Part shown: positions 28,254 through 64,000 of the stretch, piece by piece
Layout of the letters: each line of letters begins with the position of its first letter
Numbering within the stretch: position 1 is the first letter of the stretch
NCBI GenBank assembly: GCA_007026445.1
Contig: VDMD01000123.1
Span: 1-64,000, forward strand
DNA from: Schizophyllum amplum
Lineage: Eukaryota; Basidiomycota; Agaricomycetes; Agaricales; Schizophyllaceae
Reading direction: 5' to 3'
Length of the DNA: 64,000 bases
Program-made: the position numbers and the translations under genes
The notes under the pieces: model-generated
Database searches by the model: none
The model's input: only the letters and a program-made list of their open reading frames with translations
Told to the model about the DNA's origin: nothing

Positions 28254-29956
28254 ATGCATCGGTGTCTTACCGTACCCGAGATTTGGCACCTGATCTGCGA
28301 GATCATTGCCTACGACGATACCAAGCGTTCTCGAGACTTAGGATCGCTATCCTTATGTTGCAAACGCTTCTATGCTCCCGCTGTATCAGCTCTCTGGAAG
28401 GATCTGCTCAGCCCTCGGTCGTTGTTACGCACTTTACCGTCCACCGTCTTCAAGGAAGGAAGCGAACAATCTGTAAGACATGAGCTGAGGGATACGAGCC
28501 TTACTCAATGACCGCATAGGAGATCATCCCGAACATTGAACCGAATGACCTTAAGCTCTTTAACTTCTACGCGCCCCTGGTGCATTCCCTGCGCATGATC
28601 TCGTTCCCAGATGCCATATGTCTCGCATCCCTCTCCGCTAGCTGCCCACGCCCTCTTCTGCCTAATCTTCGGAGCCTCCAGTGGATCGGAGTTCCAGCCA
28701 GCCTTCTCGACCATATCCTACCCTTCCTCCACAAAAATATTGTGGAGCTTCAGATATATCTGGATTCCGATTTCTATGACGAGACGGTGTTGCCGCTTCT
28801 TGCGCGCCTACACACTATCTGTCCTAACGTCCGCGACTTTTGCCTGACGGGTGTCCGCCCCGACGGCAATAAAGAGCATGATCGCATTGTCTCCGAGCTC
28901 GCCACGCGCTGGGAGCATATCCAAACTCTCAGGATCCCACTACTCAACGAGACGGACCTCCGCAAAGTAGCGACACTTCCTCGTCTTCGATCCCTCGACA
29001 TTCAGATGCCGTGCAAAGAGTCCTCGTCTCCGTCACCCATTCCAGGACCGGCATTCCCAGCTCTGCGTCGTCTGACCATGCAAGTCCCCTCAATGGAGTA
29101 CGGTGCTCGGTTCTTGAGCATTGGACAGTCGAAAATTGACCTTGAGGCGCTCAGTATCGGAGTCTTCGGCGTCGGGCTGAAGTGCGAATGGGCCTCATTG
29201 CTGCCAGTGGTGGCACAGTCTTGCGTGGCGCAGACGCTTCGCGTCATCACGCTCGAGGACTCTTCCTTCGGCGCCCTCGAGCAGGTCTCCCAGGACGGCG
29301 CCGAGTGGCCTTACTCTCTCAACTTCGACGCTCTGCACCCGCTATTCACCTTCTCCATTCTCACTCACCTGACTCTTGGGTGCCGTCAGGGCTTCCTCCT
29401 GAACGACCTTCAGATGCGGGAACTAGCGATGGCCTGGCCACTGATGGAAAAACTCGTGTTAGGGACCACCCATCACGAAGCTGATCATGAGCCGCCCGAG
29501 CGCCCACATACGGCAACCATTCAATCGCTCGTCTCCCTCGCACGCTACTGTCCACGCCTGCGCTACCTCGCATTCGACTTCGACGCCACGTCCGTTGTGT
29601 ACGACGAAGACTCTATGCGCGACGTGCGGCAGTTTAGCCTCACTGACCTTACGGTCGAACTATCGCCCATCAAGAAAGCGCGCGTTGTTACCGCGCTCCT
29701 CTCTGCTATGTTTCCAAATCTCCGATTGGTATGCAGCGGATCGGCTTGGGGGGAGGATGGACCGAACGCGGGAGTTGACGTCGATGCAGAACTAAGGCGG
29801 CAGAGCAAATGGATGCAGGTGACGCGCCTCGTACGTATGCTGTGGAATCACCGCGCACAAACTCGAGGACAACAGGGAGATAGCGGGCAGAGTTTGACTG
29901 TCGAGAGCGCGCTGAATTCTCTGGAGGAGTACGATACGGATGATTCAGACATGTGA
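28254..29956 (+). CDS. F-box protein 1, expanded basidiomycete family
   Basis: Likely substrate receptor of an SCF ubiquitin ligase. Exon 1 starts at 28254 (MHRCLTVPEIWHLICEII) and holds the F-box, ending ...LCCKRFYAPAVSALWKDL. A phase-0 intron at 28473-28519 (47 nt) precedes one long exon of 1437 nt with leucine-rich, LRR-like repeats (PLLPNLRSLQW, ILTHLTLGCRQGFLL, CPRLRYLAFDF) and an acidic end, EEYDTDDSDM. Total about 551 residues. The same two-exon plan, with the same boundary, recurs in the genes at 34.3, 46.8 and 54.9 kb. Convergent with the RBR gene that ends at 30163. Substrate unknown. Confidence 0.88.
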
Positions 29957-34316: not shown

Positions 34317-36037
34317 ATGCATCGCTGCCTCGCTATCTCCGAAATAATTGCCCTGATCTGCGAGTTCGTCATCTCAGACGGTTCACATCGAAAATGTCGC
34401 AAAGACTTGGGATCCCTGGCGCGGTCCTGCCGAACGCTGTATCCTCAAGCAGTTGCAGCTCTCTGGAAAGTCCTGGATAGCTTGCGTCCTCTGCTGCGCA
34501 GCTTGCCGGCGGACACCTTCATCCGGAACAAGAAAAAGAAATTAGAATATGTGAGTCTTCGGATCACAATTTGCGCTTGAAATTCTTATACCTTCCTCAG
34601 GCGATGGCTCGCCACATCTGCCAGGAAGAACTTACGCGTTTCATCTTCTTCGCGTCGCTCGTCAAGGAATTATCCCTCACGTGGGTCCCAGACAAAACGT
34701 GCCTCGACGCGCTCCATCTGAGCTTGCCAGCACCCATTCTCCCGAATCTACGTGTATTCGAGTGGCGGAAAGCGAGGTCTGATAGCTTGGGCTACATTCT
34801 GCTATTCCTGCACAGCAGAATAGCGCGTCTTGTCATCCAGACATCTTACTCGGCCCATAATTCCAATGTGCTGACGTTGCTGCCCCGCTTGCGCGCATTG
34901 TGTCCTGCTGTCCAATCTTTCGAACTCTCGGGAGCTTTGGTGCTGTCTCTATCACATCTGAGGATAGTGTCAGACGCTGCCACTCGCTGGGAGAATATCC
35001 AGTCGCTCACTGTACCCCATGTGGACGACACGGATCTCATGCGACTAGCGACATTCCCGAGACTGCAGGAGCTCTCTATCAATGACCCCTCGCAACACCG
35101 CATTCTCGTATCGCCGATCTCGGCGCCGGCGTTCCCGTCATTGTGTGCCCTCTCCGTTCGACCCCAGAGCATGGATTACGCTATTAACCTTCTTCGCGCC
35201 GTGCCAACAACCCTCCAGCTGCATACTTTCAGCGCCGCATGCTATTTTACCGAGAAGAGGGATAGCTGGGCAACGCTCATCGTCGCCGTCACACAGACCT
35301 GCGAATGGAATACGCTGTGCGACATCACGATCAGGGAGACCTGTGATTACAACGAGGATGATATCGAGGCTGAGGACGAGGACGCCGAGTGGCCATTCGC
35401 TATTGCCTTTGACACGCTGGTGCACCTGAACGTGTTCTCCAATCTGCGTCACCTCAGCCTGGAGTGCTGGGGAGGCTTCCTCGTTTGCGATAGCGAGTTG
35501 AGCGATCTCGCCAGAGCTTGGCCGCTTCTAGAGACGCTCAGTTTGGTGGTAGCGCGCCCCGGAAATCGGCCCTACGAAGCTACCATTCACGCGCTCGTGC
35601 ACGTCGCGCAGCACTGTCCCGTCCTCAATAGCCTCACCCTCGACTTCAGCGCTCGGGATCTCACGTATGCAGAGCACGACACGCGCGGCATTCGACAGTC
35701 AAGCTTGACGCATCTTGACGTTCGGTACTCCCTGATCACAAGTGCGCCCGTTGTCGCGGCCTTCCTCTCCGCCATCTTTCCGAAACTCGCCTCAATCACC
35801 TCCTCTGAGGCTGAGGCAGACTCGGACGACTCCGACTCCGACTCGGAGCTGGAAGAGTCGGGTCGCGAGGGGAAAATACGGCAGAAGAAGTGGAGCCAGG
35901 TTGAGGAGCTGCTGCCGGTTTTCAGATTCGTGCGCACACAAGAGCGCCATGAACAAGCCGGCGACGCGCAGACGGATGACGACAAAGCTTCGCCTCTGGA
36001 AGATTGGATCTATGACACGGACTATTCCATCCTGTAG
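34317..36037 (+). CDS. F-box protein 2, expanded basidiomycete family
   Basis: Starts at 34317 with MHRCLAISEIIALICEFVIS, the F-box, ending ...TLYPQAVAALWKVLDSLRPL. A phase-0 intron at 34551-34600 (50 nt) is in the same place as in F-box protein 1. The long second exon holds LRR-like segments (PILPNLRVFEWRK, VFSNLRHLSLECWGGFLV, CPVLNSLTLDF) and an acidic Ser/Asp stretch (ADSDDSDSDSELEESG) before the end at DTDYSIL. About 556 residues, no frame break. The end motif resembles the FYDTDYSDL of F-box protein 3, so these copies are fairly close. Probable SCF adaptor with unknown target. Confidence 0.88.
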
Positions 36038-36605: not shown

Positions 36606-36700
36606 TCCCTGCTAGCTCAGTGGTAGAGCGCTTCACTAGTATGTCTTAACGTGAGAAATCGTCTATGAAGAGGTCAGTCGTTCAAGTCGGCTGTGGGGAA
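36606..36700 (+). tRNA. tRNA-Thr(AGT) with a 23-nt intron
   Basis: Acceptor stem TCCCTGC/GTGGGGA (seven pairs, two wobble). D arm GCTC AGTGGTA GAGC. Anticodon stem CTTCA/TGAAG with loop C-T-AGT-A. T arm AGTCG TTCAAGT CGGCT; discriminator A at 36700. The intron, 36642-36664, sits between positions 37 and 38, the canonical eukaryotic site. Mature length 72 nt. The internal A box is TAGCTCAGTGG and the B box GTTCAAGTC. Anticodon AGT (inosine after editing) reads threonine ACU/ACC codons. Confidence 0.9.
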
Positions 36701-42335: not shown

Positions 42336-44201
42336 TTACCACCTCCTACACGCATGTCTCGGCGTATACTTCTTCCCGCACAGATAGCAGAAAGCCTTCC
42401 CGCACCGGCACGTCATGTGCGGGCAGCCCTCCGTGCGCTCGACCATCGCGCCGCACGCGGGGCAACGCCGCCATTTGTGCTCCTTCACGAGAGCGTCGAA
42501 TTGCGTGTCTGCCTGCTCGGCACAGTCCCGTCCGGGGTGCGCAGGCTGTCGGCAGCCGACGCAGGTGATGCATGCGCAGGAAGGGCATAGGAGGGTCGTG
42601 GGAGTCGAGGTATTCGTTGTTGAGGTCGAGGTGCTTGTCCTTAAGGTCGACGCGCTCGTCGTCCTGGTGGTCCAGCTGGGGGCGGAGGACTCAAGAGCAA
42701 TCGCGCCCTCCGCGTGAACCGCCGATCCGAGAAATGCGCTGCACCGCGCCGTCGCGCAGTACACCCGGTCCTCGGGCTTCGCGCCATATTCGCGCTGCTT
42801 CTCGCGAAACTGCCAGAGGAGATGGGGGAGGAGCAGGTCTTCGACGGTGACGGTGGGCTGGGCGGAGACAGAGCGGGTGGCCACGTCCTCGGCAGCCCGC
42901 ACGCCCTGCTCCTGCTTCATCGGGCGGGTAGGCAGCTCCCCCACGCCACGGGAGGACATCTCCTGCACGCAGCGCATCGGCAGCGGCTGCTTACAGCAGC
43001 TCAATGGATAGACGCTCTCGTCGGTGAGCGCGACGCAGACGAGGCGAGCGAGGCAGCCGACGCAGAACGCGTGTCCGCAGGGGCCAACGACGGAGCTCGT
43101 GCGGTCGGTAGGGGAGCAGCAGGCTACGCAGTCGAGGTGGGTGGAGGGTGGGCGGCTGAGTGGTGGCGAAGCAAGAAATGATAGGTGGCGTCCTGCGGTC
43201 GAGGAGGGTACGATAAGAGGAGGAACGTTCGATGGCGCACGCCGAGCCTCCAGGACGGTGTCAATGGACAGCACAGTCGCCTCTCGGATTCGCTCGAGGA
43301 GGGCTTTGTAGTCATCTCCTTCGAGATTTGGAGTATGGTTGGCCTCGCCTTTGATGGGATTGTAAGCCTCGTTTGGGATTGATTCTCTGCCTTTGCCTTT
43401 CAGATCCTGCCCGGCTCGCGGCTTCAGATTACCAAGCCGCTTTTCAAGGAGCCGCTCTTCCTGATTGTCGACAGTGACTGCAGAGCCGTAGTGCGTCGCT
43501 GCAGGTTGCCTGGATGTCGGTGCATGACGCGCCTGGGGACGTCCGTACGTCGTCGAGGCTGCTTCGTATCTGACCGAGTTCTTCTTGACAGCATTGGCGA
43601 AAATGAGTCATGTGACGCACGTATATGGATGGGCGCTGGCGCGGCCTTCATAGGCAGTGAGGTCGCGGCCTTCATAGGCAGTGGCGGCGTGCCCGGCATA
43701 TGTAGCAGCATCGCTATCGTGATAGCCCTGCCCGGAGACATCGTCGATACACGTGTGATTGAATGAAGGCGGCGGCTCCTGCTGCCAAGTCGGTATGGAT
43801 ATCGGTGACCTGTAGCCAAACGCCTGCGCAAAACCAGCGAATGTGGATAGTGGGGATCCGCTGGTGCTTGGGCTGCTTGATGGTCCGGCAGCGCCTGACC
43901 TTGTGAAGGGTCCCGAGGGATAGGACCAGGTCGATGGCGGGTGATGCATAGGCAATGGAGGGTGGTATACAGGTCCTAACCTGGCCGTCGAATTTGTCGA
44001 TGATGCCATCGTGCTCGTGGACTGGACATGTTTGGGCGTAGCTGCACGTCGCTGGCTGATTAGGATGTCAGTTTGATATCTCGAGCGCATGCGTGAGACG
44101 TACGGTCTCCTGGAGCGCATAGCGGACGTCATGCCAGTGTCTCTCGACGAACCTTCACGCGTCAGGCGCGTGCTGTAGAGCGTCTCTGCGCGGGAAAGCA
44201 T
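42336..44201 (-). CDS. RBR (RING-IBR-RING) E3 ubiquitin ligase 3
   Basis: The ATG at 44201 starts a low-complexity Ser/Pro-rich N-terminal exon (MLSRAETLYSTRLTREGSS; WSYPSGPFTRSGAAGPSSS) with a short AYEGRD-type repeat at its end. After an intron near 43620 come DYKALLERIREATVLSIDTV and the RBR core. RING1: CVACC...CGHAFCVGC...LSCC. IBR: YCATARCSAFLG...CPSCACITCVGCRQPAH, with a Thr/Ser-rich insertion (LRTSTSTSTTNTSTPTT) inside it. RING2: CPACGAMVERTEGCPHMTCR, where the Cys after TEG is the catalytic candidate, then CGKAFCYLCGKKY. It ends ACRRW soon after RING2 and lacks the extra Cys-rich tail of RBR 1. The core frame is intact. Confidence 0.85.
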
Positions 44202-46777: not shown

Positions 46778-48506
46778 TCATAAGTCCGAGTAGTCCGTAT
46801 CGTAGAAATCCGCGTCGAGGGGTGATATCGTCCCATCAGCGATCTCTTCGCCCGGCGCGGATGCGCCGGGGTGGTCATCATGCTCTTGCGCACGGGCGAA
46901 TCGAAGCATAGGTAGTAGCCGCTCAACCTGCCTCCACTTCTGCTGCCGCGTACGTGCTGCGTCCATTTCTTCCTCCAAATCCGGACCATCGTACTCCGCA
47001 GCGTCACCACTGCCTATCACCCTGAGGTTTGGGAACAGGGCAGAGAGGAATGCAGCGACGACCCGCGCGCTCTTGATAGGAGAGAACTCGACCGAGAGGT
47101 CGGAGAGACTGTGCTGTCGCACGCCGCGCGTGGCAGCTGGCGCGTACACGACGGACGCAGCGTCAAAGTCGAAGACGAGGGATTTCAGGTGAGGGCAGTG
47201 ACGCGCGAGGGGGACGAGAGCGTGGATAGTCGCGACGTGCGGGCGGTCATCGGCGCGAACGGTCTCCAGCATGAGCGTCTCCACAAGAGGCCAGGCCATT
47301 GCTAGATCCTGCATGGCGTTGTCATCAAGTAGGAAGCCTCCCCAGCATCGCAGCTTGAGATCGGTTAGGTGCGGGAATGCGAACAAGGGGCGCAAGGCGT
47401 CGAGCGTTAGTGTGCGGGGCCATTCTTCGTCCTCGTCGGCCAACTCTTCGGATTCGTAAAAAGCGCACTCGTTCAGTTTGAGGTCGCGGAGCGCTAGCGG
47501 CATGCACGACTGCGTCACCGCGGAGATGAGCAACGGCCACCCCGCCTTCTGGTGGACATCGTATGGACTGAGATCTTGTATATCGATACCGAGCTTGTCG
47601 AGATTAAGACCACCTGCACGTACAATGCCCATGAGGCGAGCACCGAACTCCATTGTTGGTACTTCCACGCAAAGCTCACGTAGAGCTAAAAATGCAGGTT
47701 CGGGAATAGGCGCCGAGTTTGCGAGTGTTTTGTGTGGGCTTTCGATATGGAGGCGTTGCAGATAGGGGAGAGCTGCCACTTTGCGAAGGTCCGTCTCGCG
47801 GAGGACTGAAATATGGAGCGAGTTAACATTATCCCAACGTGAAGCGACCTCAGAGGTGATGCGCATATGAACTTCGTTGTCGTAGTCGTAGAAGCCGACG
47901 AACGCGAAGTCATGCACGTTGGGGCAAATGGCGGGTAGGCGAGGAAGTAGCGACACCGCGATGCCGTGATATGAGCCAGGAGTGAGACGTATGACGAGCC
48001 GCGTTATTTTATGATGGAGGAAGAGTAAAATGTGGTGGAAAAAGTCCCCCCTTAGGTGAGCACAGTCAAGACTACGTAGGTTGGGCAAAAGGGGAGTGCA
48101 GCAGCTGAGGTGAAGGGAGGCGAGACATGTCGCGTCAGGGAGCGACGACAGGCTCAATGACTGCACTAGCGGCGCGTAGAAGTTGAATTTATCGAGGTCT
48201 TTCGGCTCAATGCATCGGATTGTTTCCTGTAAATGACTATGAGTTCGCCATATATTCGAGAATCGGCGCACGACCCACAAATGTCATGCTGCCCTTTTTG
48301 AAAACCGAGGGTGGTAGAGTCCGGAGCAACGGTCGAAGGCTGTCCAGGCTCTTCCATAGGACCGATAAAGCAGGCCCGAGGAACAATTTGCAGCACAAAG
48401 CGAGCGATCCTAGGCTTCGACGGCGTTCCAAACCGCGAGGGTTGCGATAGCCGATGAGTGCGCAGATCAGGTGCAGAATCTCAGGTATGGCCAGACACCG
48501 ATGCAT
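46778..48506 (-). CDS. F-box protein 3, expanded basidiomycete family
   Basis: Starts at 48506 (MHRCLAIPEILHLICALIGY), then SLGSLALCCKLFLGPALSVL. A phase-0 intron, 48227-48278 (52 nt), precedes the long exon starting ETIRCIEPKDLDKFNFYAPL. LRR-like segments follow (PLLPNLRSLDCAHLRG, FPHLTDLKLRCWGGFLLDD, CPHLKSLVFDFDAASV), with an acidic end, DADFYDTDYSDL. About 558 residues, no frame break. Closest in look to the gene at 28.3 kb (shared KFNFYAPLV-type and DFDA-SVVY segments). Likely SCF substrate receptor with unknown target. Confidence 0.88.
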
Positions 48507-51939: not shown

Positions 51940-51947
51940 TATAAAAG
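51940..51947 (+). promoter_or_regulatory. TATA box of the pheromone-like gene
   Basis: Consensus TATAAAAG, about 165 bp before the preferred ATG at 52110. Strong TATA elements are common at highly expressed short fungal genes. Confidence 0.65.
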
Positions 51948-52109
51948 CCCGCGTCTGCTCACCGTGAATCAACTTCCCCTGCGCGCCACCCGAGTACCGG
52001 CTCCTCTATTATCTAACTCATCTGCTGCAGCGCACTTTCGTTCTCGAGGATCGTTCTTCGTCACTCTGCTACCCCCTCCGTGCATTCACTGAACACTACA
52101 CCTGCCGCG

Positions 52110-52295
52110 ATGGATCACCTCACCAGTATGCCCGACGTCGTCGCCCAGCTCGACTCCTTCGACGCAGTCACTATGGCCCCCGCGTCCTCGCGCGCCGATA
52201 TGGCGGGAGATTCAGACCTCCCGGTCAACGAGGAGCACCACGGAGGCTGCCACGGACAGAACCACGCGCAGTACTCCTGGTGCGTCGTCTGCTAG
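52110..52295 (+). CDS. Lipopeptide mating pheromone precursor-like peptide
   Basis: A 61-residue open frame starting MDHLTSMPDVVAQLDSFDAV and ending QYSWCVVC before the stop at 52295. The last four residues, CVVC, form a CaaX prenylation box, and the W just before the cysteine is typical of basidiomycete pheromone precursors (WCVV-x, YCVV-x). An E-E-H triplet lies 15-17 residues before that cysteine (VNEEHHGGCHGQ), where these precursors have the charged E-H or E-R pair used for N-terminal processing. Length, MD start, acidic propeptide and the TATA box at 51940 all fit. An in-frame ATG at 52080 would add ten residues. No intron. Expected to be farnesylated, trimmed, exported and sensed by a STE3-type receptor, none of which is visible here. 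It could also be a pheromone-like gene outside the mating locus. Confidence 0.75.
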   Translation: MDHLTSMPDVVAQLDSFDAVTMAPASSRADMAGDSDLPVNEEHHGGCHGQNHAQYSWCVVC

Positions 52296-52787
52296 TGCGG
52301 TGGCGTAGCTGCGCCGTGGCTCAACTGTTCCCCGACATGTAGGGTGAGTGTCTACGCTGTTTGCACTGTTCTCGATCTGATCATCGTCGCCAGGACTATG
52401 ATCAGAATACACCAGCCTTCATAGTTGGCTTGATTTGTTGTGGTTCGTGTCGCTAGTGGCAGTCGCGCCGACATACTCCTCTAAACTACATCCCTCTCAT
52501 ACCCTGCATAATGTTTGATGGCGGGTCCATCTATCTGTATACACATTGTACCCATTACTATCTAGTACCCATCCGTTTTGATCTCTGTATACTGCGCGTC
52601 CGCAAGCCCGTGCCGCGAACAACCAAACCGAACAGCGGAAGACGAACATTGATCATGATTGGCACGTGCCTAGAACAATGATCAATGATCATACGCAACG
52701 CTTCAAGCGCCTTGCAAGCGCCCGCCTCAAGCCCGCCCCCCACTTCACCGCCCTCCCCCATATCGAGACTAGTCAGTACCAGTCACG
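52296..52787. other. Intergenic, no gene supported
   Basis: 3' flank of the pheromone-like gene and promoter of the MYND gene. Only chance frames seen. Confidence 0.5.
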
Positions 52788-54548
52788 ATGGACGAAGGCT
52801 TCATAAGAGAGCTCGAAGATGAATTCGCCAGCCTGATCCTGGGACCCGCCGCCGCATCTCCCGAACGCGCCATTGCATCTGACCCATCGTCCTCAGCGGG
52901 AGGCGCGTCAGCGTCAAGGAACACTTCCAACAACAACAAGAACAAGAAAATGCCGTCCCGCAAGAACGACCCACCGATGATGAAGGCCATGGGCGCGAGC
53001 AGTCTCCTCAGCGCCACGCAGAAGGAGATGGCGGCGCGGAAGGCGCGTAAGAAGGACAGAAAGACCATCTGCGGGCGATGCGGCAAGGACAAGCTCGCGG
53101 GCACCAAACTGCAGACCTGCTCGCGATGCAAGTACGTCTTCGAATGCTCTAGTTCTCATATGCGCGCGCGAAGACTGACGCGCTCTCCCCCAGGTCGATT
53201 AACTAGTACGCTAGTTGCCTTCACGGTCGGGGGACTGAATCCTCACTACAAACTCCCAGCTGCTCGGAGAGCTGCCAGCGCGAACACTGGCAGGACGGCC
53301 ACAAGGAGGAGTGCGCGGCGTTTGTGCAGCCACCGTTGGCAAAGACGTTCGACCCCTCCGACCGCCCCGACGTCCCCTGGCCCGTCGACCCCATCCACGC
53401 CAGCACCAACGAGAACGGGCTCGGGATATGGATGACGACGTCCGGACACATGGGCTCGATGTGAGTGTGCGCGACCGTCCCCGCTGTCTCCCTCTAACGC
53501 ACTTGTCAGGCTCCAGCAAGCATTCCATCCCCCCGAAGGGTACAGCTCAGACTGTCCTCTCCAGGGCCCTCCCTCGTTCCGTCGCTGGGCCGGGCTGGAA
53601 GGCCCCAACCAGCGCGAGTTTGGTGTCGAGATGAAAAAGTACACCGGCCCCTCGCTCGTCACCCTCCGCATCGTCGTGCAGAACAGGCGCACCGACGGCC
53701 GCGCGATCGCCGTCTGCGCCGGCGAGACCATCATGAACGTCTTCGGATACCTGAAGAATAACCTCCTCCCCGAGGACCGCCCCAGAGTCAGATTCCAGAA
53801 CATCCAGGACGGGTAGGTTACGCCACATCGCCACAAATCGCATCTGACACGCAAATCGCATCGCATCTGACACCCATCCCGCAGGAGAGAGCTCATGATG
53901 AGCATGCCCTGGGTCGACTACAACCGCCGGCTGCGCGTCGCCATCGTCGAGGTCAACGGCGCCGTCGCGCCCAAGGGTAAATTCCTCCCCGACGACGGCG
54001 AGTACGAGCCCCCCGCGCGCCCCACCGGATATCCCTGGAACCGCGTCGTCGACTGGGAGCGCGGCCAGCTCGTCCTCGGCCCCGGCGACTACGCCGTCTA
54101 CTGCGTCCAGTACCCCCTCGGCAACGGTCACGAGTACGCGTGCTACCCGGAAATCATGACCCGCACGACCGCGGTTGCCATCCCCTGCTATCTTACTAAC
54201 GTGAAGAATACCGAGGACGGGTGGTTTAACGCGGCGCGCATGGAGCTGCGCATCGTGCGGGCCCTGCCGGGGCCGGGTCTGCCCCCGGGGCACTTTAATC
54301 CGCTCGCGCCGGTCGACTTCGAGTATGTGGAAGAGTACTATCGGCCGTATGTCGACCATGGTCTGGACCGGTTTGCGGTGGAGCGGTATGGGAAGCGGGC
54401 GGAGAAGATGAATGAGTTTTTGTTGAAGACGGGGCCGTTGCAGATGCAGTCGATGATGAGCGCGCTGCCGGCGGACCAGCGGGAGGAGGTGATGCGCAGG
54501 TCGAAGGCGATGGGTTTTGATATGGAGAGGATGATGCGCGGTGGTTGA
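52788..54548 (+). CDS. MYND-type zinc-finger protein
   Basis: The ATG at 52788 starts MDEGFIRELEDEFASLILGP. A Ser/Asn/Lys-rich linker and a basic helix (KEMAARKARKKDRKT) lead into a MYND zinc finger, CGRCGKDKLAGTKLQTCSRC, continued after an intron by CSESCQREHWQDGHKEEC. Exon 2 then has DVPWPVDPIHASTNENGLGI; later exons encode a long conserved-looking C-terminal region (RVRFQNIQDG; SMPWVDYNRRLRVAIVEVNG; HFNPLAPVDFEYVEEYYRPY) ending MERMMRGG. Four exons. Odd: only about one residue separates the two cysteine halves at the splice, where MYND fingers normally have about five, so a mini-exon or mis-set splice is likely. MYND fingers usually bind proline-rich partners; the role of the rest is unknown. 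Confidence 0.75.
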
Positions 54549-54898
54549 GGCCGAGGCGTCACTTTTGCAAGGTTCTTGATGGACTTTATTGCCAGACAAC
54601 AATCAATGTACTTACTTATGCTGTATCTTGTACTCACATTCTCGTCTTGACGTGTATCATTGCTCTGCCCCCTACACAAAAGAAACACCCCATATAACGC
54701 AACCCACATGATGTGCTTCGAGTTCACGCTCGTCTACTGGGACAAATATCAAACAGCGCTGTCACTTCACCTCCATGCGAGAGGCAGGTAAGTAAGTAAA
54801 TAAATGATTGAAGGCGAATCTGAAGATCTGCAACGGCGTCGATAACGCAACCTCTGTATCTTCAAGGCACTGCTGCAGCACGCAGCTACGTATCCTCG
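54549..54898. other. Convergent intergenic region
   Basis: 3' flanks of the MYND gene and F-box 4. Nothing else seen. Confidence 0.5.
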
Positions 54899-56660
54899 CT
54901 AATCCGTTGAATCTTCTGCGTCTTCCTCCTCGGATTCTGACATATACCACCTGTCGCGCACCTCCAGTTCCGTCGATGGCGCCTGTCCCAGGGCATCCTT
55001 CCGCTCATGATCCCGCAGCGCGGCAAACAGCTGCACCATCGACCCCACCCTCTTCCACCGCCTCTTGATCACCTCGGCCGCATCGTCGACCGTGTCCACA
55101 CCCATGAGATTGGGGAAGATGACGGAAAGGAAGCCAGCGACGACGCCCGCGCTCAGGATTGGCGACCACTGCATCGAGATGGACGGCAGGCAGTGCGGCG
55201 CGGCAGGCTGGGGCGGGTTGCTGCGGTATATCACCCCCGTCGCGTCGAGATCGAGGTCGAGGTGCTGCAGCTCGGGGCAGTGCAGCGCGAGGGGCACCAG
55301 CGCGTTCAGCGTGAGGCGGCGCTTCCACGTGGGGGCCTCTTGGGCGTAGAGTCTGAGATCTCTCAGGTGCGGCCACGTCTCCGCCATGCGCTGGACCGTC
55401 CCGTCGGCGAAATCGAACCGCCGATGCAGTCAAGGTCAAGCGCGCGGATGGCGGGGAAGGCGAGAATGGGCTCAATGTCCGCCTCTCGGAGCGGTTCACG
55501 GAAGTTGTCGGGCGACTGCGTGAGCCTTGCGTTGACCTCTAGATAGTTAAGGAGCTCGGGGCGCCGGTGCGCGTCGTGTATGGCACGTAGGAGTGTCTGC
55601 CAGTCTCCGGCCGAGGGGCGCGAGACGTGCAGCGTGAGCTCCTCGAGACTGTAGAAGTTTCTCCCTTGCATGAGCTCTATACAGCGCTCCATCGGTATGA
55701 TGTGCAGGAACAGGGTCCGCAGGGAAGAGAAAGCGTCTGGTTGCGTGAGCTTGATGGGAGCCCAGGGATTGAACGGACGATTGATGTAGAGCGTCTCTAG
55801 AGAGGGGCTTCCAATCAGATGACGGAGAGTCGCGCCGTCCAAGGCGGAGGACTTGAAATGGCGCAGGTTCCACGCACATACAGCACGCGAGAGCATGCGG
55901 TCGACGACGTTCGACCCTCTCCCTGATCCATCCGAGTGTCTAGTGTCAAACGTGAGATCGACCACAGCAGGGCATCGTGTGGGCAAATGCGAGAGAATGG
56001 CAAGCTGAGCGGTGCCGGGACCGTGAAGCAGAAGATCGAAGGAGATGATGGAGGGGGAATAGGAAATATCGAATGTGACTCAAGTTAGCGCCTCTGTCCC
56101 GCCAGAAAATGTGGCGCAAATTGGGAAACATCACATCAGAGGCAGACAAGAGAGAGCGCGAGATAGCCTTCGTCTGATAGCTCCAATGTACTTTTGTCGA
56201 CATGGTACGAGTAGGAGTACTTGTGAGAGTTGTCGGCCGCGCTACCGAATGTGAGCGTGTTGATGAATGGAGCGTAGTAAGCGAGTCTATCAAATCCTGA
56301 GGTATGATGGAGCGGTTGAGCATCTGAGAGCAATTGCTAGTCAGAAAATGCTATCAGTGGAGCAAACAACTCACAAGGCGGTCCACCTGGGAAAGAAAAT
56401 ATCTCCTCGATACGCGTTGTTTGCACCAGACGTCCGACGGCATGCAGTGCAGAAGGACAATCTCCAGGGTCAGCTCCATGTGTTTCCATAGCACCTTGAT
56501 CGCAGGTCGATGGAAAGCACGGCATGTTCTTGCATACAATGCCAACGTGCGGGTGTTTGTGACCGTGTACGGCCCTTCCCCGGCACGCGCACCATCATCT
56601 CTGACCAGAGTATCGCATATTGCTGCTATAATATCCGGTATAACTGAGAGCGCGATGCAT
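54899..56660 (-). pseudogene. F-box protein 4, frameshifted member of the same family
   Basis: Begins at 56660 with ATG (MHRALS) and, one base out of frame, IPDIIAAICDTLVRDDGAR followed by TLALYARTCRAFHRPAIKVL, the family's F-box exon. After the usual phase-0 intron comes GFDRLAYYAPFINTLTFG, then DVMFPNLRHIFW in another frame (break near 56150). A long piece follows with DFYSLEEL-like LRR segments (SLETLYINRPF, NFYSLEELTLHV, FPAIRALDLDCIGG). Another missing base near 55400 separates CIGG from FDFADGTVQRMAETWPHLRD, which runs to the end with CPELQHLDLDLDATGV and EEEDAEDSTD. At least three or four breaks against three intact paralogues. Either a decaying copy or a patch of sequence errors; the divergence from the other copies favours decay. 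Confidence 0.7.
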
Positions 56661-57300
56661 GGCTAGCGACTGGAGATAGTCTCACTACACAAGAACAGCG
56701 GCGACTATCAGGAACTTGTCAGGAGAATACTTGCACGACGTACATATGTTCTTGGAAAACAGATTTAGCAGCAATTCAGCAGCAAAGCATAGTTGTGGCA
56801 CAGTGAGGAGCGTGTCCTCCAAGTCAGTGGTGGTGATGATGGAAAGGACCAGACGCTGACGCGGACGCGTTCAAGACGCGCCGATCGGGCAACCGGCCCA
56901 TTCACGCCGCGCGCGCTTCTGCCTCGTGATACTATCGAGGAAATCGGAAGTGCTTACAGTGACAGTCTCTCGCGCTGTCCTTGCAGCTAGATGGACACAG
57001 CTGGATGCCTGTGGAAGATTTCAAGAACTACAATAGCGGCGGGAAAGTACAGATACAAGGGGTACAACTTCACAATTACAAACAAACAAAGGCACTGAAG
57101 CAGTCCAGCCGCGAGGCTGCCAGCAACTTGGCAGCGCGCGCGTCCGCTCCCATTTCAACTAACAACCCGATAGTAATAGCCCTACATCCATTCCATCTCC
57201 AAAATCTAGATGCGCTCTGATATCCCTGTAGGGAGAGCTTCGAATCCAAAGTGTCAGTAGTGAAGGATCACTAGCTGTGAGGAGGATGGGGTGGGACATC
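56661..57300. other. Intergenic, no gene supported
   Basis: Promoter side of F-box 4 and 3' flank of the proline-rich gene. Only short chance frames. Confidence 0.5.
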
Positions 57301-58952
57301 TCAACATGAGCGCCCAAGAGCCAGACTACAGGTCATGATGGTCTTTGGCTTTCGGCGAACCTTCCTCGACGGCGTGCTTGCAGCGACATCGTTCGCAGGG
57401 ATAGACGCCGCGGGTGTAGACGTAGAGATGGGAGTCTCCATGATGTCGTTTTCGATACCGACGTCGGTGATCACGTTCGCACTAGATCCAGCTGCAAGCT
57501 CTGTGGTTCCGGCAACGGCCATGTCTTGGAAACTCTTGTCGACGGCGGCAGGTACATCCTCAGCGCCGCTGTGCACGGCGTCAGCTGCTGTAAGAACTCA
57601 TCAGAAAGATGTACCTCAATTGCTCATCGACCACGTCCTTGGAGTCGTCGATGCGAGGGAGGGGTATCGGTGCCGCTATTGACACTACCTCGTCCTTGTG
57701 CGAAGCCTGCTCGCCCTCGGACAATGCCGATTCGTCGTAGGGCTCGTCCTCCTGTACCTCCTTCACCTCATTTATCTGTCTTCCCTCGACTTGCACGACT
57801 TCCTCAATCTGTTCCTCGACCCTCGCTTCCTCCGCCTGCGCCCCTGTCAACTCAACGTGACAGTCCGCAGACCCGTACGGCGAGCTCAGCTTCACTGGCT
57901 CGGCAGACCCCATACTTTGGGGCGTAGGGTACGAAAGCACTGGCGGGAGCGAGAAGACGAACATTGTCGTTGGTGGAGGGGCCATATGTGTCGTTGTCGT
58001 GATGGGAATTGCGCACACCATCTATAGGCGGAAAGTTTGGATACACGACCTCGAAGGCCCGGTCCGGGTGCATGCCGTTGAAGTGTGCAGGCGGTGGAAT
58101 GACCATGGAAGACGAGGGACCCGGTACAACGTGGTACGGCAGGGGTTGAAAGGGTCCTTGAGGGTACAACGCCTCCGGCGGACGGTAGAACACACTCGAC
58201 GGAGGCTGCATCGGGCCTTGAGGATACGAGGACCCCTGAGGCGGATACACGAGTCCCTGCGCCTGGAACTGGCCGTTCTGCATAGGGAAGGGCGGGTGCC
58301 AAAAATTTGGTGGGAAGGGGTGAGGCGGGTACGGATGAGGGTGACCGAATGGCGGGGGCGGGGGCTGGTATACGAAAGGCGAGACCGGGAATCCAGGAGC
58401 GCCGTAAGGAAATCCGAGAGGCGGATGTGCAAAAGTGTTCGGCGCGCGGCGCGTGATAGCCTCATGCGGTGGTGAGGACCCTGCAAGCCCGGCCGAGGAC
58501 CCGCAAAGCCCGACACTGGATGACCGCGGAGGTCTCGCTGCGCACGTTGCTGATGCCTGGTGGTCGAGAACCATGGAAGCCCGACCCTGGAGGTTCACAG
58601 AGACCATGCGATGACGGACGACGTTCGTGACGCATCGGTGTATGTACTGACCCAATGATCCTTTGGTTGGGCATGGCGGGAAGGGGCCGTGTGGTGGCGC
58701 TGAGAACCGCGGCGGCATCGGGGAACGCTGGCGGTGCATCAGAATTAGATGACGGGGCGTCGGCGGAGGTCGCCTATCAATTGGCGAACGCGGTGGGTTT
58801 GCCTGCACCGAACGATCGTCGGGAGGGGGCTTGCAGCTGGCTCGTCTGATGCGGCGTGCGACATGGCGCATGCATCGGTGCGCCTCGGGCTGCACACGGC
58901 CATCTACAGTGTCTTCCTGCGGCGAGAGTAGATTGTGCGGCTGAGTTGGCAT
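57301..58952 (-). CDS. Proline-rich, probably disordered protein of unknown function
   Basis: The ATG at 58952 (MPTQPHNLLSPQEDTVDGR) is the first usable start I see, but upstream coding is possible. The middle is strikingly Pro/Phe/Tyr/His-rich (PPPPPFGHPHPYPPHPFPPN; YPPQGSSYPQGPMQPPSS; LYPQGPFQPLPYHVVPGPSS). A one-base break in a GGGG run near 57910 separates FVPYAPKYG from SAEPVKLSSPYGSADCHVEL, after which comes a Glu-rich, coiled-coil-like part (EEARVEEQIEEVVQVEGRQI). A last exon reads HSGAEDVPAAVDKSFQDMAV to a basic end. The intron before it would be unusually short (about 27 nt), so that junction is uncertain. No domain recognised. Confidence 0.5.
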
Positions 58953-59727
58953 GCCGCCAGAAGCTCGGTAACCAGAGATGTTGGCTTGTCCTCGCAGACG
59001 GGCTCAGCTGAGGTCTGGGGAAAGTCAACATCCGTGGGGCTCGGCACGCTCCATCTCGATATGCTCGTTGACACCCTCGTCGACGAGGCACTCGTCCTCC
59101 GTCGAAGGATATCCAAGGAGACCTCGCGTCGGCTGGCGGCATACCGCGGGCATCCTCCTGTAAGCTCGATGATTGGTCCACGTCGTCCTCATTAGTCGAC
59201 GATCATAGACATCCTCTTGTGTTGCGTTGTATCCGGCATGGCGACGATGGTCAGACAACAGGGAGCTCAGCGTGTCGCTGCTGCGAAGCAGAGTCCGCAG
59301 GTGTCAGATGATCCTGATCTCCTTCGCGATGTGGACGAGGCGAAAGGATGAGGTCACCCAAGGATGAAGGCGATGCAATGGTGCCCAATCACTGCAGCAC
59401 ACGTAAAGTCACAAAGCTACTGAACCGGAAGTATTACGCACGAGGATGCCGAGTTTTGCTTGTTCTGCAGAGCCAGCAGTATATCTGCAGGTCCGTATCA
59501 GTAGGTCTGCGATATCATCAGACGGAGAAAAGGTGATTGACGTTTACGACATACTGGACCAGATCTGTGACCAGTCGGTCACTTTGTGTGCTTGATGTGG
59601 AGAGTGAGCTGCCTGACTTTCCTCGGCCTGAAGCAGCGTGATGGACGGGAGGTCGTCCGATACCGGTGAACGCGGACTGAACATGGTTATGAATAATGCT
59701 CAATAATCGTACTATATACGCACGAGG
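58953..59727. other. Intergenic or unresolved 5' exons
   Basis: A frame around 59.03-59.25 kb (-) could be an upstream exon of the proline-rich gene; I could not join it. The remainder shows nothing. Confidence 0.35.
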
Positions 59728-61761
59728 TTATATTGAGCACGTCGACGTCCAGGGGGATCTCGAAGTCCGCCGCAGGAAGCCTTTGTCAAGCCCCGACTGC
59801 TCGTCATTGTCGGTGTCTACGTCGGTGTCTACACCAATATCGGAGTCCTTGACCTTGGCGCCGGCATAGTTCTTCAGCATCGTAGGGCCACTGTGCACTC
59901 GTTAACATCGATGAATAAGTCCTTCATGGCATGACGTACCCCTCAGTCAGCGGTTGGCTGGCTGTCGTCCAAGAAGTGCCGTCCTCAGCATCATCCTGAA
60001 GGTCATCGGCTAGTGTGATCGCACCGGCGTTGATTGCGGTGAGGGAGGGAGAAGTGCTCGCTGTGTCGTCCTCGTCGAAGAGAGAATTATCCCCCTCGTT
60101 CTCGGCAGACGGTCTGCAATCGACTATAAGCATCGACTAAAGTACCCAAGGAGGAGCTGACGTACTCAGCGACAGAGGGATGGATTTCCTTTTCAGAGGC
60201 CTCGGGAAACTGTGAGGCGAGGGAAGAGAGAGGCACGGCCAATATATCCTCGGCGGTATCATCCGCGGGAGGCTCACTGATGATGGGTTGGCGAAGTCGC
60301 ACACAACCAAACGGCATAGCAACGTACCTCACGGCTTGCGTTGAGGAGGCTGATGGGGAGGGTTCGGTAGGCTCTATGTCGGAAGAGTGCCGTTCGTCTA
60401 CAGGAGAGGACAGTGATGTCGCGGTGTTCAAGTAGTCTTGCGTGTCGGAAGGACAATCGTCCGCGGTAAGATCGCTTATGTACCATCAATACAATGACAT
60501 ACTGAACAGCAGGACTACGTACTCGGTGGGCGGTGTTGACGAGGCGGCAGGAGGGAGGGTATTATCTTGTGTCTCGGTATCGGAAAACTCGGCGACGGCA
60601 CTGACAACGAGTCAGAAAGGTGACGACGGGCGGAAAAGGAAAACGGACAGCTTTGCGTTGACAAGATGATTCGGGGTAGAGGGACTGGGAGGGGTGTTGC
60701 TGGACTGCTCGGCGCCGAGCCTGAAGTCGACAGCGGGTAGGGCGCCTTGGATGACGGGCGAAGGGGGTGCATTGGCGAGCTGCGTCGACCCAACATGCGA
60801 CCGAGATCGTGGCACGGCGAACTGGATGTTCGGGACGGGGTTCTGGGCGGGCGAGATGTCGTTGATAGGCTGGGCGCAGGCGATGTTCGGTTCGTCAGAG
60901 TCGCTCGTATCCTTGGACTTGCCGTCGACGGCATCCTTTTCCTCGTTGCTGTGCTCGCTGTCACTGTCGTCCATCGCGTCGTGCAGGCTGCGAGTGATAA
61001 AATGGGCGAGGGGACCGGTGGGCTGATCTGATGTTGCGAACTCGCCAGGTCGGTCAGTAGGCTGAGCGTCCTGCTCGGGAATGACGTCGCGCTGGGTCGA
61101 AGCTTTGTCCTCAGAGGTGTCCGCGTCTATCTGGGGAGGCGCTTCGTCGTCATCGTTGTTGGGCAGGTCGCCAGACTCGCTGGGTGAGAAACGTCCGGTC
61201 CCATCGCTATGACCGTCATCAGCGTCATTTGTGTCGCCAATGTCGCATGGTTTGCGGACGGGAGAATAGGACTTGTCGGTCAGAACGTCGTCGCTGTCAA
61301 GATGAACCAGTATCAGCGCGAGCACGCGAGCGGGAACGAGGAAATTCGCACGTGGATGGCGGTGACGGGCGGCGGCGGCGGCGGCGGAGTGCCGGCGGAA
61401 GACTCCGCGGCGGGGCGACGCGTGCCTCTCTTCGACCGATCGCGCCACAAGTAGATAAGGCTGACCATGTTAAGGAATACGACGGACTGCTCGTACATCA
61501 GCCTGTGCCATCGAGCGCGCTAAATGTGACGCGACTCACCAGCAGGATGGTGAGAAGAATGGTGCTCAGCCACAGCTCCTCGGCTAAGGCGATCTTCAGC
61601 TGGTGGACCTCTTCCTCTGCGACAGCAATCAAGCGCTCTAGAAAGAGATTGCGTAGTTCTGCTTCCGCAGCGAGTTGAGCAATCTCCTGGGATTGCCGAC
61701 GAACGGCAGTGGTAAGCCCGAGGCTCCAGGCAAGGCTGACCACCTGAATCAGGCTGTTCAT
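59728..61761 (-). CDS. Membrane protein with an acidic, exon-rich disordered tail
   Basis: The ATG at 61761 starts MNSLIQVVSLAWSLGLTTAV, a helical stretch LAAEAELRNLFLERLIAVAE, a membrane segment (LWLSTILLTILL) and, over a short intron, a second hydrophobic stretch, QSVVFLNMVSLIYLWRDRSK. A poly-Pro run and RANFLVPARVLALILVHLDS follow in a frame I could not connect cleanly. Then comes a long acidic Ser/Thr/Pro/Asp region in many short exons (NDADDGHSDGTGRFSPSES; SDSEHSNEEKDAVDGKSKD; SAENEGDNSLFDEDDTAST) closing with KVKDSDIGVDTDVDTDNDEQ and ending TSTCSI. No enzyme motif. The plan (membrane segments, then a long acidic tail split into small exons) recalls the genes at 4.6-7.1 and 19.7-25.5 kb, without clear sequence identity. 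Confidence 0.5.
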
Positions 61762-64000
61762 GATGACGAGAATGGGGATGAGGGCAAGGTGATGGTCTCA
61801 CTAGTGGTGGGATGGTGGTGATGATGGATGAAGAGAGAGAGGTCAGAGCGCGGGCGCTTCTCTTTAAGAGGAGGGAGAATTGTATATTGAATTGTAATCC
61901 CCCATCCGGCATGAAAAAGACATCATGCGCAGGCGGTCCGACCGAACGGCTCCTTTGTCCACCCTAATGGGTTTGCCTCATCGCAACGCGGGTCCCCGCA
62001 TGGAACGTCTGCGAGGATTCGCTGACCCTGTCGCGTCGACGAGCGTCCGCCAGCAAATAGTGGCAATCCCATAAGAATCTGCCTCTCGCGAAAGCGAACT
62101 ATCGAATAGCGGGAATGCGGCGTCGCGGCGCAACTGCTGGGTCGTCTATTGTCAAATTGCTTGTAATTGTTCAAGAGCTGTAGCAAAAGCCTCGTGGTGC
62201 GCAGAGAATCTCCAAGGGATCTCCGCCGAATACAATCATTCTGTGATGAGGCGTGCGGTCAGTACAGCATTCCGAGAGAAGAACATGTTTTACTTACCGA
62301 GGTAACCACGGGATGATGGCTCTCGCGGCAGGGAATTCGACGAGCTTTCGAGAGCACCAATAGGCTCCTAGAGCCTCCCAGGATCTACAAGGCGTGAGAG
62401 CGCAATGGAATACCGCAGGGCTGGCCTGACGCGTGGTCACTTATTGTTCGTGACGCGGCTGTAGCGGCCAAAAAGTGCATTTGACGTAATGTTGCTCAAG
62501 TCCTGCTTGGTACGCGGTGCCCTTTCCCGGACGAGTGCAAAGACCAAGAGAAGAAGGTTCGTGGATTTGCATGTGGGGACGTCGTTCTTTGTTACGGGGC
62601 ACAGTTCGTGGCGCGGCCGGTCCCGGGCATGGGTGGACGCAACGTCGCGAAGTCGGAAGCGTGAGAGCAGAGCTGATAACGAGATCAGTAGGCGCCTTGG
62701 CCTAGGGTAGAGCACGCACCGTAGACTTGACAGCCGTCTCCACGTCTTCCCACCAGGGACAAGATCCTAGGCGCTCGTGGCGACGCGGCGTCGAGCGCAT
62801 CATGCGCGACGGCTTCAAGTTTCCCCATTCGTGCATTCCTTTGTGATCGTTTGTCGGTGTCTTCGCTCGATCTCACCGTGGCCTGCTCAGGCATTCAGGT
62901 TCAGCCTTTGAGTTTGTACGAACAGAGAAGGGAGAAGGGCGGATCGAGAATGGAATATACAGCCCCTCCGAAGCAAACGTACCGCAGCGTTAAGAGAAGA
63001 GCGTGAGGTTTCATCGGTACTCATCTTGGCATATATCCTAGCCTTCGTAGCTCGTTGCAAGAAAGGATTCTCTTTATGATGTCGTTCGATGTGGGTTGCG
63101 GGGAGAGATGAGCTAGAAAAGCGCTGCAGCCTCAGGGCATCCGTATGCGTCACGCCGTGTTCCGTGACGGTCCATGCCTCCGCTTGCGGGATCGTTGCTT
63201 TCCCTTGCCGTCGTCGAGACCCGCAGCATGGAGATGACCGACGACGATTTTTTCATTGTCGGATGAATGACAATGAGGGGAGAGGAAGAAAAGGTGACAC
63301 GTACGTCTGTGACATGCCTGCTGGCTCTTCGTGTACAACGTGACACTTCCTGTCAGATGACCACTGAATTGAAAGAAGTTCGAGACCGTGAGATAGAATA
63401 GGAGTAGATAATTAGACATGCGATGTTCGCAGACGAGAGGGCTAGTAGAGGGGACTCTTGACATGAAGGTTACTTGCAGGTTTGGCTAAAGGAGGAGATC
63501 AAGTCCGACTGAGAATCAGCCGGAATGCCCTGGTTCAAGTCGTCGAGATAGCGCGTTCCTCCTCCGACTTGTCATGTGAATGAGCTCGTCTTCGCCGTGC
63601 GGCCTTCAGAAATCTGACGCTCTCCTTCCCATTATGCCACCGGATTCGCTAACCCCCGCGCAAATACTCCAGAACGACCAGAGGCAGCTCGATATTTGCA
63701 TTTCTTGAAGAGGCCCTGTTTTCGAGCTGTATCGCAGCCAATATTTCCGCCAGACTTGCGCAAAACCCTCTTCGAATTGGGTGAGCAGACAGATTGTCCC
63801 CCGTCGGCGAGGCGGAGCAGCGTGTCATATACACAGTAGCCAAACGAGGTCAACGGCTGCCGTCGTATGCGCAAGGTAGATATTAAGCACCGTAGTCGGG
63901 AGGTGCGAGGGAGATCCGATTCTGGGCGCTATCCGTGTCAATGTTAATATTGAATACATACTGCAGATGCGACGATCATTGGAGACGACGAGGAGATGAC
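61762..64000. other. No gene supported
   Basis: Upstream of the acidic-tail gene. Short frames such as 62887-63153 (-) and 63632-63874 (-) have no family features and no splice chain. The end of a gene continuing beyond the window cannot be excluded. Confidence 0.4.

Follow-up and report, generated by a model that had tools for sequence, protein, structure and literature searches.

Anatomy and family resemblance of the putative precursor gene

The window examined here, a 64,000-nucleotide stretch of Schizophyllum amplum contig C28, carries on its forward strand a short open reading frame (ORF) that looks like a genuine and apparently unannotated pheromone precursor gene at the edge of MAT-B. 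The features recognized in and around it are as follows:

51940..51947, +, TATAAAAG, candidate TATA box, 170 bp 5′ of the ATG
52110..52295, +, putative pheromone precursor ORF, 61 amino acids plus stop, ending W-CVVC (protein 98% identical in the C155 haplotig)
52230..52238, +, EEH, residues 41–43, predicted N-terminal processing site
52239..52283, +, predicted mature peptide HGGCHGQNHAQYSWC with C58 farnesylated, both peptide ends being predictions, the same in both haplotypes
52281..52292, +, CaaX box CVVC
52344..52393, +, probable 3′ UTR intron, GTGAGT...CTGATC...CAG, 50 nt, by pattern match, signals kept in both haplotypes
52788..54545, +, MYND zinc-finger gene, extent and introns approximate (zf-MYND 20.9 bits, under the 22.7 cut-off, in frame 52773–53432)
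52752..64000, no strand assigned, stretch that aligns in reverse, as an allele (97.3%), to C241:297203-308549, the physical tie to MAT-B, with the overlap continuing to C28:64092

The ORF at 52110–52295 (+) translates as MDHLTSMPDVVAQLDSFDAVTMAPASSRADMAGDSDLPVNEEHHGGCHGQNHAQYSWCVVC and is laid out as MD...NEEH-HGGCHGQNHAQYSW-CVVC, with C58 as the CaaX cysteine and W at residue 57. The original prediction of a 61-codon frame starting MD and ending W-CVVC agrees with this translation; the EEH that it placed 15–17 residues ahead of the prenylated cysteine corresponds to E41-E42-H43, 17–15 residues N-terminal of C58; and the consensus TATAAAAG that it described does lie upstream of the frame, at 51940–51947, which is also upstream of its start coordinate of 52080. 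PF08015-type precursors are short ORFs of about 40–100 amino acids with a CaaX end, and the window ORF has 61 and CVVC. Charged-pair processing sites are described for such precursors in the available parts of PMC3140503, PMC5100862 and PMC8305134, and the pair lies 10–15 residues before the C-terminus in the known precursors covered by the excerpt of PMC5100862. The EEH of the window ORF stands farther out, 18–20 residues from the C-terminal residue, so the mature part is predicted to be longer than in the core MAT-B genes; it contains one internal Cys and three His.

To look for introns beyond the stop, we used a strict pattern composed after viewing these genes: a GTRNGY donor no more than about 60 nt from the stop, a CTRAY branch and YAG. 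It matched the window gene in both haplotypes, as well as 6 of 8 distinct core genes (10 of 12 entries), with a background of 450 out of 18,230 window positions. Core genes L033 and L035, which lack the strict pattern, have looser GT-AG candidates, and the gene at C269:142188 and C241:279475 fell outside this test because its examined sequence stops too early. Introns in the 3′ UTR were seen in ESTs of three of four A. bisporus pheromone-like precursor genes, according to the portion of PMC8305134 available. Upstream, TATAAAG or TATATAA was present within 300 bp of 5 of the 8 core genes scanned, while two had only CATAAG and one had none of these. We also considered whether the frame is part of a longer spliced gene, a concern raised in the original prediction, and rejected this: the frame ends at a TAG before the best intron candidate. 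The one other match in 51948–52460 may nevertheless be spliced: at 52280–52393 (114 nt), it pairs the acceptor at 52393 with a weaker donor that lies within the coding frame, and would remove the CaaX box if used.

Family searches point to a pheromone precursor, as originally proposed. PF08015 scores the ORF at 19.4 bits (E 0.0024), below the Pfam cut-off of 22 bits, and genome-wide the E-value is only 0.25, with two unconvincing places close behind at 0.77 and 0.96; for F. velutipes precursors, the part of PMC3140503 available gives Pfam E-values of 0.0013, 0.45 and 0.035. An HMM built from ten core pheromone sequences, with the window gene left out, ranked the ORF first of 602 window ORFs (E 0.0014; runner-up 0.22). 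Its score of 14.6 bits compares with a top score of 10.9 bits among 60,794 ORFs from 100 dinucleotide shuffles of the window. The low Pfam score and genome-wide E-value are what would speak for a chance ORF, a reading we regard as extremely improbable in view of the shuffled windows, the location at MAT-B and the gene anatomy. A CaaX end occurs in 2 of the 424 window ORFs of 30–100 amino acids and, combined with an MD start, in this one only, and shuffled windows averaged 0.64 CaaX ORFs and 0.03 aromatic-CaaX ORFs, none of the latter with an MD start, making chance a poor account of the ORF.

Used as a query, the ORF found no match in the protein database, where the S. amplum entries include three core pheromones of this assembly (P0085, P0086 and P0088), and the gene therefore appears to be unannotated. 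An alignment-based profile search of the same database returned 8 proteins, none of them a counterpart of the window gene. With no homologue in that database, the evidence on conservation comes from a single strain, through its two haplotypes. Genes such as this one escape notice through contig breaks and their small size. Within the part of the literature covered by our search, nothing relevant was found on CVVC together with pheromones and, judging by titles, nothing on mating in Auriculariopsis ampla, which we take to be a synonym of S. amplum.

Linkage to the MAT-B core

Schizophyllum serves as the classic model for mating types that number in the thousands. Two contigs of this assembly, C241 and C269, carry MAT-B with its STE3 receptors and pheromone genes. 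A profile search of the assembly listed 26 STE3 matches, all on C269, C241 and C1, which we grouped into five genes each on C241 and C269 and one on C1; none of the 26 listed lies in the window. We assigned the names bar, bbr and brl from where the genes lie and how far their haplotypes diverge, taking as a guide the S. commune arrangement given in the available portion of PMC8161036:

C241:272640-274631 and C269:135388-137350, bar, 71% alike between haplotypes
C241:288764-289819, bbr, within a block 98.1% alike in both haplotypes
C241:270510, C241:220476, C241:224152 and C1:2296442, further STE3 genes beyond bar and bbr

The window gene is tied to these contigs by an allelic overlap of 11.3 kb, in which C241:297203-308549, in reverse, pairs with C28:52752-64092 (97.3%; 94.8% against C155) and the final 192 bases of C28 match C241:297203-297396. 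C241 ends 457 bp before the stop codon of the window ORF, which puts bbr, as named by position, about 19.2 kb away (308549 − 289819 + 457) and the nearest core pheromone gene (C241:287397-287561) about 21.4 kb away. The gene extends the S. amplum B region to about 89 kb, from C241:220476 to the ORF. C269 ends earlier, at the equivalent of C241:293488, so linkage in the second haplotype is by extension from the first. A 20 kb similarity search under-reports, with C155, C28 itself and C241:297203 missing from it, and the linkage rests on the contig-end and overlap alignments. These place the window beside MAT-B, as had been anticipated. The accompanying suggestion of a pheromone-only satellite fits the gene, for which a part in mating specificity is no more than possible. 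A foreign or contaminating contig was rejected, since both C28 and C155 are allelic to the C241 end, and so was a third haplotype in the C241 tail, where only 6 of 445 variable ungapped columns show three states, a count in line with two haplotypes whose phase changes from contig to contig.

On C241, seven intact core pheromone ORFs (275496, 276884, 277990, 279475, 281465, 286368 and 287397) occupy about 12 kb of the interval from bar to bbr, a count that leaves out 1,979 bases of the stretch searched. C269 has at least seven (134001, 138171, 139592, 140698, 142188, 144200 and 149351) within about 16.5 kb, with 134001 on the far side of bar; the local pheromone model covered part of this contig, and further genes may exist there. 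One of these ORFs, C241:279475-279639 (+) or C269:142188-142352 (+), which begins MNTL and ends NSDKPCGYGGGYCTIA, is absent from the PF08015 matches and was found by the local model. At C269:150408-150542 (L040), the C241:287397 pheromone has a second copy that keeps its CaaX end but whose frame is disrupted as assembled, either as a pseudogene or through sequencing error. The other intact MAT-B pheromone ORFs found end in CVVA, CTIA or CSVS, and the window gene in CVVC. For five of the seven intact core pheromones on each contig, the mature end does not vary between haplotypes; it does vary in the genes beside bar. The B-beta side is nearly identical (C269:148361-156476 against C241:285351-293488, 98.1%). 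Farther along C241, 291317-293221 and 294339-296248 are 78% alike.

Haplotype comparison and possible roles of the peptide

The counterpart of the window ORF lies at C155:13000-13182, and its protein is 98% identical. Two substitutions separate the ORFs: one is silent, in the C58 codon, and the other causes N40D, shortly before the predicted mature peptide, which is therefore identical; the CaaX end, whose loss in related genomes was to count against the original prediction, is kept in this second haplotype of the same strain. The 100 nt after the stop differ by 27 substitutions and 6 gap columns. Set against the final 66 coding nt, which have 2 substitutions, the 27 in the next 100 nt give a Fisher p of 4e-5; both stretches were chosen after the data were seen, the 66 nt being counted from the first difference. 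Haplotype differences are almost absent from most of the ORF and from about 1.2 kb upstream of it, leaving only the last third of the ORF informative on constraint, and the jump in divergence could also stem from a recombination boundary close to the stop. Splice signals are kept between C28 and C155 while the intron body changes. The surroundings of the gene are 95.9% alike between haplotypes, and the bar block 71%. With a mature peptide that does not vary between the two haplotypes compared, a weak test where B-beta is apparently shared, we do not class the gene as mating-type-specific; nor is such sharing special to it, given the five of seven core pheromones that share mature ends as well.

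We consider it very probable that 52110–52295 is a working farnesylated-peptide pheromone gene at the outer edge of S. amplum MAT-B, a reading drawn from sequence comparisons. Following the known pathway, the 61-residue precursor would be farnesylated on C58, lose VVC and be carboxymethylated, and cleavage at EEH would give an exported lipopeptide of about 15 residues, HGGCHGQNHAQYSWC, acting on an STE3-type receptor. Compared with the Schizophyllum B-locus precursors (bap/bbp, PF08015), the gene shares the MD start, the charged site, the aromatic residue before the CaaX cysteine, a probable 3′ intron and the chromosomal region, but it ends in CVVC, lies about 19 kb outside the receptor/pheromone core, and its predicted mature part is longer and includes an internal Cys as well as three His. 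An allele-identical mature peptide, a 3′ UTR intron and no adjacent receptor are traits it has in common with the non-mating precursors of Agaricus bisporus, C. cinerea and L. bicolor in the excerpt of PMC8305134, though its mature sequence is not of the G-rich GGGSGN(G/N)AYC type described there and it is linked to MAT-B.

Such a pheromone could be a B-beta satellite, B-beta being common to both haplotypes, or a non-mating signal, and we lean slightly towards the latter. A B-beta mating pheromone, either relocated or left behind about 19 kb away from the core and activating foreign receptors in matings that differ at B-beta, is quite possible, if short of probable. Linkage to bbr is consistent with it, and with the B-beta side 98.1% alike an identical pheromone is to be expected even if it were mating-specific. 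Against this, the gene lies about 21 kb from the nearest core pheromone with at least the MYND gene between, the core genes are clustered within about 12 kb on C241 and 16.5 kb on C269, and its surroundings are much more alike between haplotypes than the bar block. We rate as evenly balanced the prospect of a non-mating pheromone, for example a Brl receptor ligand serving self-sensing or growth. The unchanged mature peptide would fit, as would the STE3 genes besides bar and bbr (C241:270510, 220476 and 224152; C1:2296442), and in the sections available, PMC8161036 describes Brl3 and Brl4 of S. commune as orphans whose ligands may be self-pheromones, and PMC8305134 reports that mature peptides of A. 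bisporus non-mating precursors are unchanged between varieties. However, no receptor adjoins the window gene, and the sharing of mature ends by five of seven core pheromones per contig makes a shared peptide weak evidence by itself. The narrower proposal, that the gene encodes the dedicated non-mating ligand of an orphan Brl receptor flanking MAT-B and provides a constitutive self-signal at the mating locus, seems unlikely to us.

A decayed, silent relic of a pheromone gene duplicated along with MAT-B flanking genes would be in keeping with the duplicated neighbourhood, as 54.9–63.7 kb of the window has 69–83% similar stretches elsewhere in the MAT-B region, but the open frame, TATA box, intron signals and CaaX are all intact in both haplotypes, and we think a relic very improbable. 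For the working pheromone gene that we prefer, the same mature peptide in both haplotypes and the lack of an adjacent receptor lead us to expect that it plays no part in the B difference of this dikaryon. Van Peer et al. expected pheromones that are not closely receptor-associated to be unlikely to be mating-type-specific (PMC3140503, in the part available). The gene offers a testable candidate ligand for receptors without known ligands.

Other features of the window

A Pfam search of all six frames gave the MYND finger alone at 52.5–57.5 kb and nothing at 59.0–64.0 kb. Stretches 54919–55757 and 57186–63704 have 69–83% similar, partly collinear copies in MAT-B, for example at C241:234779-242135 and C269:101027-108372, which we interpret from these alignments as segmental duplications. 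An IBR domain gene above the Pfam cut-off lies at 42339–43607 (−). Diverged related copies (63–66%) occupy 28254–29841, 35465–35788 and 46905–48506, and weak LRR_14 matches under the cut-off fall in frames 28520–29953 and 34481–36034. At 36606–36700 there is a dispersed repeat of about 95 bp, 72–85% alike at 13 or more places, those listed being on 9 other contigs. Lastly, 4001–23162 matches contig C217 in reverse, in several pieces of 67–91% with gaps, and C217 is probably a second, structurally different haplotig.
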